Shown here: piece by piece, positions 21,744 through 27,773 of the stretch
How the letters are laid out: each line of letters starts with the position of its first letter
Position numbering within the stretch: position 1 is the stretch's first letter
DNA from: Psychromonas sp. Urea-02u-13
GTDB lineage: Bacteria > Pseudomonadota > Gammaproteobacteria > Enterobacterales > Psychromonadaceae
Length of the DNA: 64,000 bases
NCBI RefSeq assembly: GCF_002835995.1
Contig: NZ_PJBZ01000067.1
Location: forward strand, 62,001-126,000
Direction of reading: 5' to 3'
Position numbers and translations under genes: made by a program
The notes under the pieces: generated by a model
The model's database searches: none
What the model was told of the DNA's origin: nothing
The model's input: the letters and a program-made list of their open reading frames with translations, nothing else

Positions 21744-22220
21744 ATGTTAACCAAAAGTCGAGTTGTACAATTATTATTCATGCTGGCTGTTTTGCTTTTT
21801 TTGTTTTTCTGGAGAACGTTTGATAGTGAGCAGAGTGAACCTGCTGTAATCGAACAAAACGTTTTGGCGCAAATTAGTTTAGGTCGTTGTGATTACACGG
21901 ATTCATGTGAGTTTATTACCGAGCAGGGGACCTTTTTGCTGGCTATCAAAAATGCGCCGATTCAAGCAGAAGAGTGGATTGATTTTGAACTGACTACGCC
22001 ACTTGAAAATAGTGAAATAACCAAGGCTCAAATTGTCGGTAAAACCATGTTTATGGGCAGGATTCCGGTACGCTTTAAAAAGTCAGCAGAAAAGACCTTT
22101 AGTGCAAAGGGTATTGTCGGGGCTTGTACGACGGATCAAATGTTATGGGAATTACAAATAACAGTGCTTAATGGCGATAAAAGTGAATTGTTAACCTTTG
22201 ATTTTATGGTTAACAAATAA
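21744..22220 (+). CDS. Hypothetical membrane-anchored periplasmic protein divergent from ccoN
   Basis: This 158-residue protein has an N-terminal signal anchor (VVQLLFMLAVLLFLFFW), after which the rest should lie in the periplasm. Three Cys are present: two in GRCDYTDSCEF and one in IVGACTTDQM. The remainder is predicted as beta-rich with charged loops. AGGATTAG lies just upstream of the ATG. I do not recognise the family. Its divergent position beside ccoN suggests but does not show a link to the oxidase. The paired Cys could bind metal or form a disulfide. Confidence 0.7.
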   Translation: MLTKSRVVQLLFMLAVLLFLFFWRTFDSEQSEPAVIEQNVLAQISLGRCDYTDSCEFITEQGTFLLAIKNAPIQAEEWIDFELTTPLENSEITKAQIVGKTMFMGRIPVRFKKSAEKTFSAKGIVGACTTDQMLWELQITVLNGDKSELLTFDFMVNK

Positions 22221-22311: not shown

Positions 22312-22755
22312 TTATGAAAAGAAGCGTTTTTTCAATAGATGATCAACCGAGAACAATCCAGCGCCCCAAACAACATTAATTAGAATCATTAATCCCCATA
22401 ACTGATGGTCATAAAATCCGCCATCCCACAATACCGGGTAAGAGACAACTGCCATAATATTAAAGATAAACAATACGGCTGCCATCGGACGTGTTAACAA
22501 ACCTAATATCATTACAATAGGTAAAATTATTTCAGCTGCTGTACCTAGGTAAGCCGCTAACTCCCAAGGGATAATGGGTACTTGGTATTCCTCTTCAAAA
22601 AGATATAACGTGCTATCCCAGGTGGTTATTTTTAGATAACCCGATTTCAAGAAAACACTGGCAACCCAAAGGCGAGTGAATAGCAGTAATACTGGCGTAA
22701 AATAGCACAGCATTTTATCGACAGCAGATTGGTAGAGGCTCAGTAAGTTATTCAT
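22312..22755 (-). CDS. DoxX-family membrane protein of the bufferin cluster
   Basis: This 147-residue protein has four predicted membrane helices, with the DoxX-type segments LLFTRLWVASVFLKSGYLKI, LAAYLGTAAEIILPIVMILGL and RPMAAVLFIFNIMAVVSYP. DoxX proteins act in membrane redox reactions in several contexts; here the partner is unknown. It starts 9 bases after the DUF2063 gene, so it is the last gene of the four-gene unit. In family knowledge a DoxX gene is frequent in DUF2282-DUF692-DUF2063 clusters. Its part in bufferin maturation or export is not settled. Confidence 0.88.
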   Translation of the reverse strand: MNNLLSLYQSAVDKMLCYFTPVLLLFTRLWVASVFLKSGYLKITTWDSTLYLFEEEYQVPIIPWELAAYLGTAAEIILPIVMILGLLTRPMAAVLFIFNIMAVVSYPVLWDGGFYDHQLWGLMILINVVWGAGLFSVDHLLKKRFFS

Positions 22756-22764
22756 AAATTATCC

Positions 22765-23520
22765 TTAATTATTTTCTTCGTTAATGGTGAATCCATTGAG
22801 TAATGATTTTTCTAATAGTGTGGGTAACTGGTGGTGCAATTCAGGAGGAGTCACTTGACCTAAGTTTTTTCCTGCTATTAGTTGCTGTAAAAGCAAAAAG
22901 GCATCTTTTTCTAAAGGGATCAGTTCAATGCGAAAATCAGGCTGTTTTTTTAATGCGAGATAACAGGCCTTATTAAGATCCGTTTCAACCACTGCATCGT
23001 TAACCAACATATGGTAAAGCGGATAAATATCTTGTTCGCTACTAAATAGGTTGACCTCAATAGGCACTATAAATTGTAAGCTGTTAAAGGCATCTTCGGG
23101 TATTAATGACAGCGCAGAAAGGTCAAGTGTCTGTTTACTCATTTGACTGTTACTGGTTTGTTCTAATAACCACTCAAATTTTGCCATTTCAGCAATATAA
23201 GGCATCTCATCTAATTGCGTTAAGGTATTTAAAAATGCATTAAAGCCATCACCATAGGTCATTATGTTATTTTCAGTCGGAGGATGTTTTATTATAAATT
23301 CTCGGCTGACCGCATTAAAAAACGCTTCCCCAACTAATGCGTAGGTATGTTTGTAAGTGATTGCTAACGCTTCGGTTGTGCCCATAATAAAGCTGTTACG
23401 GTAAACTTGCAGGCGCTGTAGGGACGTTACTGATTGCGTCTCTGTTATTTGCTCGGTGATTTTTTCATGGCGATAAAAAAGAGCGTCCGCGAATTGCGCT
23501 TGTAATTGTTGTAATTTCAT
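22765..23520 (-). CDS. bufC: DUF2063 partner protein of the MNIO enzyme (BufC-like)
   Basis: This 251-residue soluble protein begins with QLQAQFADALFYRHEKITEQ and continues RLQVYRNSFIMGTTEALAITYKHTYALVGEAFF, which is the N-terminal DUF2063 (PF09836) DNA-binding-like fold; the C-terminal half is more variable. Family knowledge: DUF2063 proteins partner DUF692/MNIO enzymes and probably help present the precursor peptide. The ATG overlaps the stop of the DUF692 gene by four bases, indicating translational coupling. The combination with the upstream enzyme and precursor makes the call firm even though the protein itself has no catalytic motif I can name. Confidence 0.9.
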   Translation of the reverse strand: MKLQQLQAQFADALFYRHEKITEQITETQSVTSLQRLQVYRNSFIMGTTEALAITYKHTYALVGEAFFNAVSREFIIKHPPTENNIMTYGDGFNAFLNTLTQLDEMPYIAEMAKFEWLLEQTSNSQMSKQTLDLSALSLIPEDAFNSLQFIVPIEVNLFSSEQDIYPLYHMLVNDAVVETDLNKACYLALKKQPDFRIELIPLEKDAFLLLQQLIAGKNLGQVTPPELHHQLPTLLEKSLLNGFTINEENN

Positions 23521-24353
23521 TTCAGCGCCTCCCTGATATTGGTTGCTTTACCCGCTTCTTTCATCAGTGTTGCTAGGCAAGGTATTTCAAGATCCCATTC
23601 AATCAGCGTGACCGCATCGGTTTTACTCTCATGTATAAATTGCTGGTAAATGTCCCAGACAGCTTGTTTTACAAAAGTGCTATGCGTATCAATTAAGAGT
23701 GTGCTGTTTTCTATTTTTTGCTCAGTAAAACCCGCTAAATGAATCTCTTGCACTGCTTGATGATCGATAACCGCTAAATATTGCTCAACTGAAAAATCTT
23801 GATTGGTCGCACTGACATAAATATTATTAAGGTCGAGTAATAAACCACAGCCTGTTTGCTTACTTATTTCATTGATAAACTCAGGCTCGCTCATTTCCAT
23901 CTCTTTATATTCTAAATAAGAAGAAGGGTTCTCAACTAAAATTTGTCGTTGTAGGAAATCTTGCACTTGATTAATGTTATTAATAAAACAACGTAAAGCC
24001 TCTTTTGTATAAGGGACGGGTAATAAGTCATTAAAAAAGTTACCTTGCAATGAACACCAGCTTAAATGGTCAGACACTAATGCGGGTTGAAACCGGTCAA
24101 TTAATGTTTTTAACTTTTTAAGATGCTGTTTATTGATTTTCTCGTGGCCTCCAAGTGATAAACCAATGCCGTGAAAGCTCATCGGATAATGCGGGGCTAT
24201 TTGCTCAAGAAAATAATGGTTTTTACTATGTTCATTAAAATAGTTTTCACTGTGTATTTCTAAAAATCCAATATCAGGTCGAGTATCTATGACGGCTTGG
24301 TAATGAGGGCTGCGTAATCCAACACCCACTGCTTCCTTATTAATTTTTTTCAC
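23517..24353 (-). CDS. bufB: Multinuclear iron oxidative enzyme (MNIO, DUF692) BufB-like
   Basis: This 278-residue TIM-barrel enzyme has the DUF692 (PF05114) hallmark segments GVGLRSPHYQAVI, FLEIHSENYF, SFHGIGLSLGG, VSDHLSW, ILVENPSSYL, GLLLDLNNIYVSATN, EIHLAGF, DTHS and LIEWD. These hold the His, Glu and Asp residues that bind two or three iron ions in MbnB and related enzymes. Such enzymes convert Cys of a peptide to oxazolone- or thiooxazole-type groups. The start is a GTG with AAGGG seven bases upstream. It follows the precursor gene by 65 bases and overlaps the DUF2063 gene by four. No MbnC-type gene is present, which argues against methanobactin. Confidence 0.93.
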   Translation of the reverse strand: MKKINKEAVGVGLRSPHYQAVIDTRPDIGFLEIHSENYFNEHSKNHYFLEQIAPHYPMSFHGIGLSLGGHEKINKQHLKKLKTLIDRFQPALVSDHLSWCSLQGNFFNDLLPVPYTKEALRCFINNINQVQDFLQRQILVENPSSYLEYKEMEMSEPEFINEISKQTGCGLLLDLNNIYVSATNQDFSVEQYLAVIDHQAVQEIHLAGFTEQKIENSTLLIDTHSTFVKQAVWDIYQQFIHESKTDAVTLIEWDLEIPCLATLMKEAGKATNIREALK

Positions 24354-24390
24354 TGTACGCCCTTTAATAACCAGAACTCAGGTTAAGTAG

Positions 24391-24416
24391 AATGGGGGCT
24401 TATTACAGCCCCCATT
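24391..24416 (-). promoter_or_regulatory. Intercistronic hairpin between bufA and bufB
   Basis: The strong palindrome AATGGGGGCT / AGCCCCCATT with a six-base loop lies directly after the bufA stop. On the minus strand no T-run follows it, so it looks more like an mRNA-stabilising or attenuating hairpin than a full terminator. Confidence 0.6.
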
Positions 24417-24418
24417 TT

Positions 24419-24682
24419 TTATGATTCTTTAGGCTCTAAGCTACCGCCTGAAATCTTGCCACATAAACCTTTTGGTACGGCAATAAATGCATCACCTTGA
24501 TTATCAACTTTAGAAGTACCAGCGCATGAACTTGTTTTTGTTGCACAATCATTTTGTCCTGCTGCTGCAATGCCATAACATTTCTCTTTACTTGCAGCCA
24601 TTGCTGGCGCTGAAATAAGTGAACTACCGACTGCAATAAGTGTCGATACCGTTGCTGCTAATGCTAAGTTAGATTTTTTCAT
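24419..24682 (-). CDS. bufA: Bufferin-type precursor peptide (DUF2282)
   Basis: This 87-residue secreted precursor has a clear Sec signal peptide ([16 protein letters not shown]..., cleavage after APAMA at residue 29). The mature peptide has four Cys at 35, 46, 53 and 74 in [20 protein letters not shown] and GLCGKISGG. This layout is that of DUF2282 (PF10048) bufferins, RiPPs modified on Cys by a DUF692 enzyme and exported, reported to relieve copper stress. AGGAA lies seven bases upstream of the ATG. It is the first gene of the leftward unit. Which Cys are modified here is unknown. Confidence 0.92.
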
Positions 24683-24815: not shown

Positions 24816-24944
24816 TAGATGTTGAGCATGCTTATTTTTTCACTTGTTTTGTAATATTTACATTCTTTTTTTTGTCACCAAGAGAAGCAATGTTTTGATG
24901 ACCGCTGAGCTACAGACGGATTAAACGTCTTGATAAGCCTCGTT

Positions 24945-25212
24945 TATACCCGTCACCATTCAAGTTGCAAAGTTCAGCAAGTGATGAGGTGAACAGGTTT
25001 TAGGCAGGAAGTTGAAGGTCTAACTAGTTCAATCAATACTTCCTAACAACGAAGGTGTTTGCCTCATCGCTTGCCCTACGGGTCGCTAGCTCGGAAACCA
25101 ATTCTGCGTTGCAACATTTGATAAGGGCTAGCCATTGTCATCATGTTGCGTCTTGCCTTGGTACCCGAGCTAGCGACTGAACAAAGCACCTTGATTGGTA
25201 ACGGGTATATAT
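24945..25212. repeat. Palindromic MITE-like element, copy A
   Basis: Terminal inverted repeats are TATACCCGTCACCATTCAAG on the left and CTTGATTGGTAACGGGTATA on the right. The interior has AGTTGAAGGTCTAACT, CTTGCCCTACGGGTCGC and GAGCTAGCGACTGAAC blocks. It encodes nothing credible and closely resembles the copy starting at 25292. Confidence 0.8.
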
Positions 25213-25291
25213 ACATTGTTGTAATAATCAATTATATATACCGTGGTAACGCATAAAAAATTTCACATAAATTTAAATATTTATTAACATT

Positions 25292-25545
25292 TACACTCGT
25301 TGTCATTCAATAGACAAAATTCAGCACGCGCTGAGGTATACAGATTCTAGGTTAGAAGTTGAAGGTCTAACTGGTTCAATCGAAGCTTATTAACAACGAA
25401 TATGTTTACCTCTCCGTTTACTCTGCGGGTTGCTAGCTTGTAAACCTATTCGGCGTTACAACCTTTGAGAGGGGCTGGTCTCGGTATAGTTCCACAAGAA
25501 GCGAGCTAATGACTGAATAAAGCATGTTGATTGGTAGCGGGTATT
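25292..25545. repeat. Palindromic MITE-like element, copy B
   Basis: It shares AGTTGAAGGTCTAACTGGTT, the GTTTACCTC/GCGGGTTGCTAGC blocks and the right end TTGATTGGTAGCGGGTAT with copy A, about 80 bases away; the left end is more diverged. It ends 40 bases before the ECF sigma start codon and may therefore contribute to that promoter. Confidence 0.75.
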
Positions 25546-25584
25546 ATTAAATTCAATCGATTAGGTTATAGGAAATACAAATTA

Positions 25585-26151
25585 ATGAATTTATTTTCCA
25601 GCAAACGAAATAAAAGCGCTGATTCATCTGTCCTTATAGATATGAACAGAAAACAAAAACGCTATGAGGCATTAGTAAATGTCTTCAGTGCAGACTTATA
25701 CCGTTATGCGTATTGGATCTGCCATGACCCAGATATTGCTCAAGACTTAGTGCAGGAAACGTGCTTGCGCGCTTGGAAAAGCTTGGACAGTCTACTGGAT
25801 GACAAATCAGCTAAAGGTTGGTTGTTTACTATATTGAGGCGTGAAAATGCACGTCGCTTTGAGCGTAAACAGCATCCCTTGGTTGATATTGACGATCACG
25901 ACATTGCCGGTAATGCCGATCTGACTCAGGAAATGGACAGTGAACTCTTATTAAGAAAAATTGCGACATTAGCTGATGAGTATAAAGAACCGCTTTTATT
26001 ACAACTTATTGCTGGTTTCACGGCAGAAGAGATTGCTGAACAATTGTCACTTAATAAAAATACAGTCTTAACACGTCTGTTTAGAGCAAAGAATCAATTA
26101 AAGTCATCATTAACCACTGTAACTAAAGAAAGTGAGGCGTCCCATGGATGA
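25585..26151 (+). CDS. ECF-type RNA polymerase sigma factor
   Basis: This 188-residue sigma-70 family protein starts at the ATG at 25585 (MNLFSSKRNK) with AGGAAA about ten bases upstream; a longer frame begins inside the adjacent repeat and is rejected. Region 2 shows ADLYRYAYWICHDPDIAQDLVQETCLRAWKSL-type features, and region 4 has LLQLIAGFTAEEIAEQLSLNKNTVLTRLFRAKNQL. There is no region 1.1 or 3, as expected for the ECF class. The stop overlaps the next gene by eight bases, the usual sigma/anti-sigma arrangement. The signal and target promoters are unknown; the divergent bufferin unit is a candidate target. Confidence 0.92.
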   Translation: MNLFSSKRNKSADSSVLIDMNRKQKRYEALVNVFSADLYRYAYWICHDPDIAQDLVQETCLRAWKSLDSLLDDKSAKGWLFTILRRENARRFERKQHPLVDIDDHDIAGNADLTQEMDSELLLRKIATLADEYKEPLLLQLIAGFTAEEIAEQLSLNKNTVLTRLFRAKNQLKSSLTTVTKESEASHG

Positions 26152-26857
26152 TATTTTATTTCGTCATACCGCAACCGCAACACCCAACGAGAAAGACGAC
26201 GCTTTTTTACAGCGCCTAGCAGATTCCGAGAAAGACAAAGCATTTGTTAAAAAAGCCAAAGAGTTTGATGCTAGTTTACAAAAAATGCTGAAAGTGGATT
26301 TGCCCGAGGGGTTAACGGATAAAATTTTACTAGAGCAAAGTTTTGTTGTTGAGAACGAACGTATTAAAAATGGCCGTTGGCACATTGCGATTGCCGCCTC
26401 TATTGCGTTTATTATTGGTATCAGCTTGCCACTACTTAATAATGTTAGTCATTCACCTTTAGATATTGGTGAAGTGGCGATGCAACATGTGCAGGCAGAG
26501 TATTATTTTACGGCCAAATCTAATGAACGCGCTGATTTAAAAATGGTTAATGCAAAATTGGCACGTTATGGCGCACAAGCCCATGGTGATTTAGGTGATG
26601 TTACCTATGTAAACTATTGTAATTTTGAAGGAACGCCAGCATTGCATATGGTAATGCAGGGAGAAAAAGGACAAATAACCGTTTTTGTTGTACCGGGTGA
26701 AGCTGAATTTATTGAAACAGATAAATTTAATAATCAGCATTTGAAAGGCGTAACCGAAAAAATGGGCAATGCTAATGTGGTTATTGTCGGTGAACGAGAT
26801 GAATCATTACAAACCATTCGTGATGCGATGCAAAACAATATTCAGTGGGATATCTAA
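26144..26857 (+). CDS. DUF3379-type membrane protein, probable anti-sigma factor
   Basis: This 237-residue protein (start MDDILFRHT at 26144, GAGG upstream) has a cytoplasmic N-terminal part of about 80 residues, one membrane helix (WHIAIAASIAFIIGISLPLL) and a periplasmic C-terminal domain of about 135 residues with a single Cys (NYCNFEG). The topology and the eight-base overlap with the sigma gene are those of anti-sigma factors. The sequence style fits DUF3379, known beside ECF sigma genes in Vibrio and Shewanella relatives. The N-terminus lacks a zinc HxxxCxxC motif, so it is not of the ZAS type. Confidence 0.82.
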   Translation: MDDILFRHTATATPNEKDDAFLQRLADSEKDKAFVKKAKEFDASLQKMLKVDLPEGLTDKILLEQSFVVENERIKNGRWHIAIAASIAFIIGISLPLLNNVSHSPLDIGEVAMQHVQAEYYFTAKSNERADLKMVNAKLARYGAQAHGDLGDVTYVNYCNFEGTPALHMVMQGEKGQITVFVVPGEAEFIETDKFNNQHLKGVTEKMGNANVVIVGERDESLQTIRDAMQNNIQWDI

Positions 26858-27143: not shown

Positions 27144-27219
27144 TCCTCTTTAGCTCAGTTGGTAGAGCAACGGACTGTTAATCCGTGTGTCAATGGTTCA
27201 AGTCCATTAAGAGGAGCCA
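27144..27219 (+). tRNA. tRNA-Asn(GTT), copy 1
   Basis: A 76-base tRNA with acceptor arms TCCTCTT / AAGAGGA, D-arm AGCTCAGTTGGTAGAGC, anticodon loop CTGTTAA with anticodon GTT, T-loop GTTCAAG and encoded CCA. All five copies in the array are identical. Confidence 0.97.
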
Positions 27220-27276
27220 AATTAAGTTGGTTTTGATTTTTCGAAACTAACGAGTCTCCGGACTTAAAATGTAAAT

Positions 27277-27321
27277 TGTTCTTTAGCCAAATTGGCTGGT
27301 AGAGCAATTGCGAAAATGTAC
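27277..27321 (+). pseudogene. tRNA-Asn 5'-part remnant 2
   Basis: It repeats remnant 1 with changes (CTTTAGCCAAATTGGC, GGTAGAGCA, ATTGCGAAAATG). It again sits directly before an intact tRNA-Asn copy, so the remnant and tRNA may have been duplicated together. Confidence 0.5.
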
Positions 27322-27324
27322 AAT

Positions 27325-27400
27325 TCCTCTTTAGCTCAGTTGGTAGAGCAACGGACTGTTAATCCGTGTGTCAATGGTTCAAGTCCATTAAGAGGAGCCA
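27325..27400 (+). tRNA. tRNA-Asn(GTT), copy 2
   Basis: Identical to copy 1 over 76 bases, including anticodon GTT and encoded CCA. Only 29 bases separate it from copy 3. Confidence 0.97.
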
Positions 27401-27429
27401 CTTTTATAGTTTTGAGTTTCAAAACTAAT

Positions 27430-27505
27430 TCCTCTTTAGCTCAGTTGGTAGAGCAACGGACTGTTAATCCGTGTGTCAATGGTTCAAGTCCATTAAGAGG
27501 AGCCA
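27430..27505 (+). tRNA. tRNA-Asn(GTT), copy 3
   Basis: Identical 76-base tRNA-Asn with encoded CCA. A 58-base spacer containing CGAGTCCTAGGACTTAAAACG follows. Confidence 0.97.
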
Positions 27506-27563
27506 CATTAAGTTAGTTTTGATTAGTCGAGATTAACGAGTCCTAGGACTTAAAACGTACAAT

Positions 27564-27639
27564 TCCTCTTTAGCTCAGTTGGTAGAGCAACGGACTGTTA
27601 ATCCGTGTGTCAATGGTTCAAGTCCATTAAGAGGAGCCA
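27564..27639 (+). tRNA. tRNA-Asn(GTT), copy 4
   Basis: Identical 76-base tRNA-Asn. The spacer after it nearly equals the one before it, so copies 3-5 form a 134-base tandem repeat. Confidence 0.97.
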
Positions 27640-27697
27640 CATTAAGTTAGTTTTGATTAGTCGAAATTAACGAGTCCTAGGACTTAAAACGTACAAT

Positions 27698-27773
27698 TCC
27701 TCTTTAGCTCAGTTGGTAGAGCAACGGACTGTTAATCCGTGTGTCAATGGTTCAAGTCCATTAAGAGGAGCCA
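27698..27773 (+). tRNA. tRNA-Asn(GTT), copy 5
   Basis: Last copy of the array, identical in sequence. A terminator follows within ten bases. Confidence 0.97.

Follow-up and report, generated by a model that had tools for sequence, protein, structure and literature searches.

A type-1 bufferin operon in Psychromonas sp. Urea-02u-13 and a candidate ECF sigma/DUF3379 regulator beside it

The results of our analysis of gene content, family membership, conserved residues, folds, gene order and synteny establish that the four genes lying at 24682-22312 on the minus strand of the window (the whole 64,000-nucleotide stretch of Psychromonas sp. Urea-02u-13 DNA studied here) form an ordinary Buf1 bufferin cluster, with a peptide and enzymes of known kind. 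They very probably constitute a type-1 Buf1 (DUF2282) operon making an enzyme-modified peptide. As to its control, we give an even chance to the proposal, drawn from the sequence, that a divergent pair of genes encoding an ECF sigma factor and a DUF3379 protein switches on the operon via a TGAAATTT-N14-CGGT promoter. The sequence-only reading of this DNA had called a bufferin-type RiPP cluster, a call well supported by Pfam and NCBIfam matches, by the metal-site residues of BufB and by the folds of BufB and BufC; the hairpin between bufA and bufB, the upstream motif, the repeat element and the divergent gene pair described below are additional to it. The features of the cluster itself are as follows.

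24419..24682, minus strand: bufA, Buf1 (DUF2282) precursor, 87 aa (PF10048, E=1.6e-24, 86 bits against a cut-off of 22)
24596-24682, minus strand: signal peptide of BufA, approximately residues 1-29, read from the sequence
24389..24418, minus strand: terminator-like hairpin between bufA and bufB, 12-pair stem, folding z=-2.7
23517..24353, minus strand: bufB, MNIO maturase, 278 aa, GTG start (PF05114, E=1e-101)
22765..23520, minus strand: bufC, PME type 1 partner with DUF2063 and an RRE-type C-terminal domain, 251 aa (PF09836, E=1.1e-20)
22312..22755, minus strand: doxX, DoxX-family membrane protein, 147 aa (PF07681, E=8e-17)

All four open reading frames were recovered in searches with PF10048, PF05114, PF09836 and DoxX (PF07681), each exceeding its Pfam cut-off with a match strength far beyond chance; the matches to PF10048 and PF05114 are strong, so that the outcome on which the sequence-only reading was to be given up, neither family being matched, did not occur. 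The overlap of four bases that it had noted between bufB and bufC (23517..24353 and 22765..23520, both on the minus strand) is likewise present. The doxX gene is the fourth core gene of bufferin operons, and the order bufA-bufB-bufC-doxX is that by which bufferins are defined (PMC12452194).

The precursor has the DUF2282 domain with four conserved cysteines, at positions 35, 46, 53 and 74 as first reported, and these are invariant in the alignment of Psychromonas precursors. Its N-terminus, read by eye, carries KK, a hydrophobic stretch and a Sec-type cleavage site (APAMA|A), consistent with the signal peptide claimed earlier, and the mature part presents in order KEKCYG, NDCA, SCAG and the final cysteine at 74. 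BufA is 81-97% identical to its Psychromonas relatives sharing the locus. Searches of BufA against the PDB with phmmer returned nothing useful. The suggestion that an EKCYG motif in place of EGKCG repeats might signify other modified residues or another product is not borne out, for EKCYG is the usual context of the first cysteine in the Buf1 family. The precursor of the genome's second cluster has it too, as have all remaining Psychromonas precursors that were read except one (DKCYG in G016), and EKCYG therefore cannot be taken as the sign of a different product. EGKCG repeats characterize a separate precursor group, of the oxazolin/fontiphorin type (PMC13097082, PMC12452194), and thiooxazoles have been reported for both EGKCG-type and Buf1 precursors (PMC13097082).

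BufB is an MNIO of the BufB class adjoining the precursor gene, scoring 368 bits against the NCBIfam model MNIO_BufB (NF050167), whose curated cut-off is 310, and lying below the NCBIfam cut-offs of the HvfB, MbnB, ApyH and ChrH models. The conserved blocks expected of a DUF692-type enzyme are all in place: the metal-site residues H60, H95, E140, D173, N176, H204, D221, H223, E251 and D253 are invariant in 32 aligned sequences. The AlphaFold2 model of BufB (pLDDT 92.9) finds its best PDB match in 3bww (TM 0.81/0.88), followed by TglH and MbnB. MNIOs of the EGKCG type are set apart by a second Arg and by a Phe that follows the catalytic Asp, and conservation at these EGKCG-linked sites is lost in MNIOs of the DUF2282 type (PMC13097082). 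In the alignment BufB has Arg-Ser15 and Leu254 where the H. somni enzyme (3bww) has two Arg and Phe, which agrees, at the level of these residues, with that loss. Two irregular forms of the gene were seen elsewhere, namely a bufB interrupted by stop codons in a relative that still possesses bufA, bufC and doxX (G022; L034 7174-8006), and an apparent fusion of bufB and bufC in a single frame of 550 residues in Vibrio ruber (L131 4280-5929).

BufC was identified as the DUF2063 partner by its PF09836 match and, since phmmer against the PDB yielded nothing useful, was settled by its fold: the model (pLDDT 91.9) matches TglI (8hci/8hi7) and NGO1945 (3dee), both of which are solved MNIO partner proteins. 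The hairpin separating bufA from bufB probably sets the ratio of precursor to enzyme. Comparable hairpins, differing in sequence, occur at the same place in most of 13 clusters, a recurrence compatible with incomplete termination, or with processing, to the advantage of the precursor. Variations in gene content were also observed around these genes; a CAP-superfamily gene (PF00188, tested for the L039 copy) stands between bufB and bufC in two Psychromonas (L039 6195-6923, L043 5153-5878), and a tandem pair of bufA genes precedes a single bufB in two other loci (L036 and L037, of G023 and G009).

Membership in other MNIO systems was considered and rejected. For oxazolin/HvfABC, the scores fall short of the cut-offs for HvfB (226 against 360 bits), HvfC (42 against 142, scored by the partner) and HvfX (42 against 80, scored by DoxX), and EGKCG repeats are absent; for methanobactin, MbnB reaches 76 bits against 325 and the partner is a DUF2063 protein, not MbnC. 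The cluster has in common with the EGKCG-type captophorins oxazolin and fontiphorin (HvfABC, FonABC; PMC13097082) an MNIO with a PME1 partner, a Sec-exported cysteine peptide and thiooxazole, predicted here, but differs from them in that their precursors are of the repeat type and their MNIOs have other specificity residues.

By analogy with studied relatives, from which modification, export and copper binding are all taken over, the pathway may be pictured as follows. BufA would be synthesized with its Sec signal peptide and handed by BufC, through its DUF2063 and RRE fold, to the multi-iron oxygenase BufB, which would most likely convert the central Cys46 and Cys53 to thiooxazoles; Cys35 and Cys74 would be joined in a disulphide, as in Buf1 peptides, in which the two central cysteines are modified and the first and last are disulphide-bonded (PMC12452194, legend of Fig. 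3). The exported peptide would then sequester excess copper in the periplasm, with DoxX as a presumed accessory membrane protein, and the hairpin 3' of bufA would probably yield more precursor mRNA than enzyme mRNA. A product unlike known bufferins, with other residues modified or other chemistry, could be imagined given that several reactions are catalysed among MNIO enzymes (PMC12452194) and that the modification is here a prediction; we regard it as very improbable, considering the typical surroundings of the first cysteine, the BufB score above the equivalog cut-off and the installation of thiooxazole by all PME1-dependent MNIOs studied so far (PMC13097082).

Genes for DUF2282 and MNIO proteins are found in 19 of 24 Psychromonas genomes, and the source genome has two Buf1 clusters. 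The second (G000:C262; L005 4238-7520) shares with that of the window the order bufA-B-C-doxX and the same four cysteines, but is preceded by YHS-domain and thioredoxin genes, has an MNIO only 37% and a partner only 20% identical to those of the window, and lacks the upstream motif; clusters of this YHS-Trx-buf form also occur in Colwellia, Glaciecola and further marine genomes. Among the 14 Psychromonas clusters of the window type, 12 adjoin ccoNO and nine adjoin the divergent ECF/DUF3379 pair, several of the rest being truncated by contig ends. The remaining cbb3 oxidase genes follow in the window, together with one for a FixI/CcoI-like P-type ATPase (names assigned from sequence). Between doxX and ccoN lies a protein of 158 residues (21744-22220), kept there in Psychromonas and giving no Pfam or NCBIfam match. 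Further away, five tRNA-Asn genes (gtt) in tandem (27144-27773) account for a repeated ORF at 27292-27516.

The region upstream of bufA contains the following features.

approximately 24943..25211, no strand assigned: interspersed repeat element of 269 bp separating bufA from the motif; 59 stretches of the genome match it
25235..25265, minus strand: promoter-like motif TGAAATTTTTTATGCGTTACCACGGTATATA with an ECF-type -35/-10 arrangement, directed at bufA
25531..26151, plus strand: ECF sigma factor gene divergent from bufA (Sigma70_r2/r4_2, PRK12517 subfamily)
26132..26857, plus strand: gene for a DUF3379 protein, overlapping the sigma gene (PF11859, E=5e-72)

The motif, with consensus TGAAATTT-N14-CGGTWTNTA, was the sole block to emerge from the alignment of bufA upstream regions. 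Its internal spacing is constant in 13 Psychromonas clusters, in 11 of which it lies about 100 bp upstream of bufA, and conservation is concentrated in its two parts: among 12 Psychromonas sequences identity is 97% over the -35-like part and 85% over the -10-like part, as against 41% and 35% for the upstream and downstream flanks. A scan for sigma-70 promoters gave fewer sites than in shuffled sequences and was set aside. The motif occurs once in the source genome, also when searched in a shorter form, and the strict pattern was matched nine times in 198 genomes of the order (against two matches for the reversed control pattern); eight of the nine fall within Psychromonas, always at the bufA or the ECF locus, and the ninth, from a member of another family (G109), is placed just upstream of the DUF2282 gene there. 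At three further loci (L065, L066 and L067, of G009, G016 and G023) the motif is kept beside the ECF gene with no bufA after it, and a short conserved stretch is found some 300 bases further; together they could be either what is left of a lost operon or a sign of a small RNA.

The ECF gene is listed with a TTG start, the ATG at 25585 being more likely, as in relatives. From the overlap of the two genes and one hydrophobic stretch read in its sequence, the DUF3379 protein is a putative membrane anti-sigma factor. A Pfam search of this gene gave no NrsF match, and thus the arrangement of a sigma factor with NrsF that accompanies some Buf1 clusters, without being obligatory, is not that found here. 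Our literature search retrieved no paper naming DUF3379 and no description of an ECF/DUF3379-type regulator for bufferins. VC2302 and SO_1986 are possible relatives; the papers reached through them concern rpoE2-chrR, which we judged to be a different pair.

It is an evenly balanced question whether ECF/DUF3379 governs type-1 bufferins in several marine gammaproteobacterial families through a TGAAAT-N16-CGGT promoter. The motif is confined almost wholly to genomes possessing the pair. A weight matrix trained on Psychromonas only and applied to the bufA upstream regions of other clusters found the motif in 12 of 63 from genomes with DUF3379 (10 of the 12 in a single family, f10), in none of 14 from genomes without it, and never on the reverse strand; inspection by eye revealed variants of it in three more families (f16, f21 and f25), unchanged in distance but altered in the -10 part. 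None of the 20 genomes reached via named loci, of which 19 lie outside the genus and one is the record of G019, contains the motif, and 19 of them are without DUF3379. Over all clusters Fisher's test gave p=0.0004, a value to be read as support rather than proof, since its Psychromonas part is circular, having been found via the motif, and the genomes, being related, do not count as independent. Counting against regulation, many genomes with DUF3379 have a bufA without the motif, YHS-type clusters included.

The pair could instead be a mere genomic neighbour, with the motif recognized by a different sigma factor or activator, an alternative to which we assign a somewhat less than even probability. 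It would account for the persistence of the pair beside ccoNO in some Psychromonas that have no buf genes, and it draws on two further observations: the pair was not found beside bufA outside Psychromonas, and the motif, sought upstream of the ECF gene as a sign of autoregulation, was not found there. For the same two reasons, what ties the pair to the operon is their adjacency in Psychromonas and a wider co-occurrence. What speaks against a mere neighbour is that the motif is present in several families and yet, P. hadalis apart, in no examined cluster from genomes without DUF3379; even within Psychromonas, G019 lacks both. In P. hadalis (G004) the motif is present and DUF3379 was not found, but its contig breaks off some 60 bp upstream, and the absence may reflect an assembly gap. 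Another rival concerns this strain in particular, where the motif stands 583 bp from the ATG of bufA; of 12 relatives, 11 have it at 97-115 bp and P. hadalis at 188 bp. The inserted repeat, of which a diverged copy is seen at 25290-25476, has pushed the motif away from bufA and may have altered or weakened control; the cluster might then be intact yet silent or mis-regulated, an outcome made conceivable by this distance, by the abundance of the repeat family across the genome and by the broken bufB of the relative G022. We nevertheless consider it unlikely, given that the four reading frames are intact, that active-site residues are retained and that a longer leader is compatible with expression.

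Regulation by the divergent pair would have its closest parallel in Caulobacter, where the Buf1 operon adjoins sigF and an anti-sigma gene and is served by a GTAACC-N16-CGAA promoter (PMC3511200). The C. vibrioides genes CC3254-CC3257, with sigF/CC3252 (PMC3511200, PMC12452194), follow the same DUF2282-MNIO-DUF2063-DoxX order, and in both systems ECF sigma and anti-sigma genes adjoin the operon and a promoter of the -35/N16/-10 type lies upstream of bufA. The differences are that the Caulobacter anti-sigma factor is NrsF (DUF1109), whereas that proposed here is the putative DUF3379 protein, and that the promoter, GTAACC-N16-CGAA in Caulobacter, reads TGAAAT-N16-CGGT in the window.

With this cluster a Psychromonas member joins the Buf1 family, which already counts thousands. 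The useful part of the finding is the regulatory lead, which names a specific promoter, proposes a sigma factor for it and brings in DUF3379, a family of unknown function, all three being open to direct test. If correct, it would add to the sigF/NrsF system of Caulobacter another, independent way of placing bufferin operons under a sigma factor, would give the DUF3379 family a role in sensing copper or stress, and would account for the switching-on of many bufferins of marine gammaproteobacteria.
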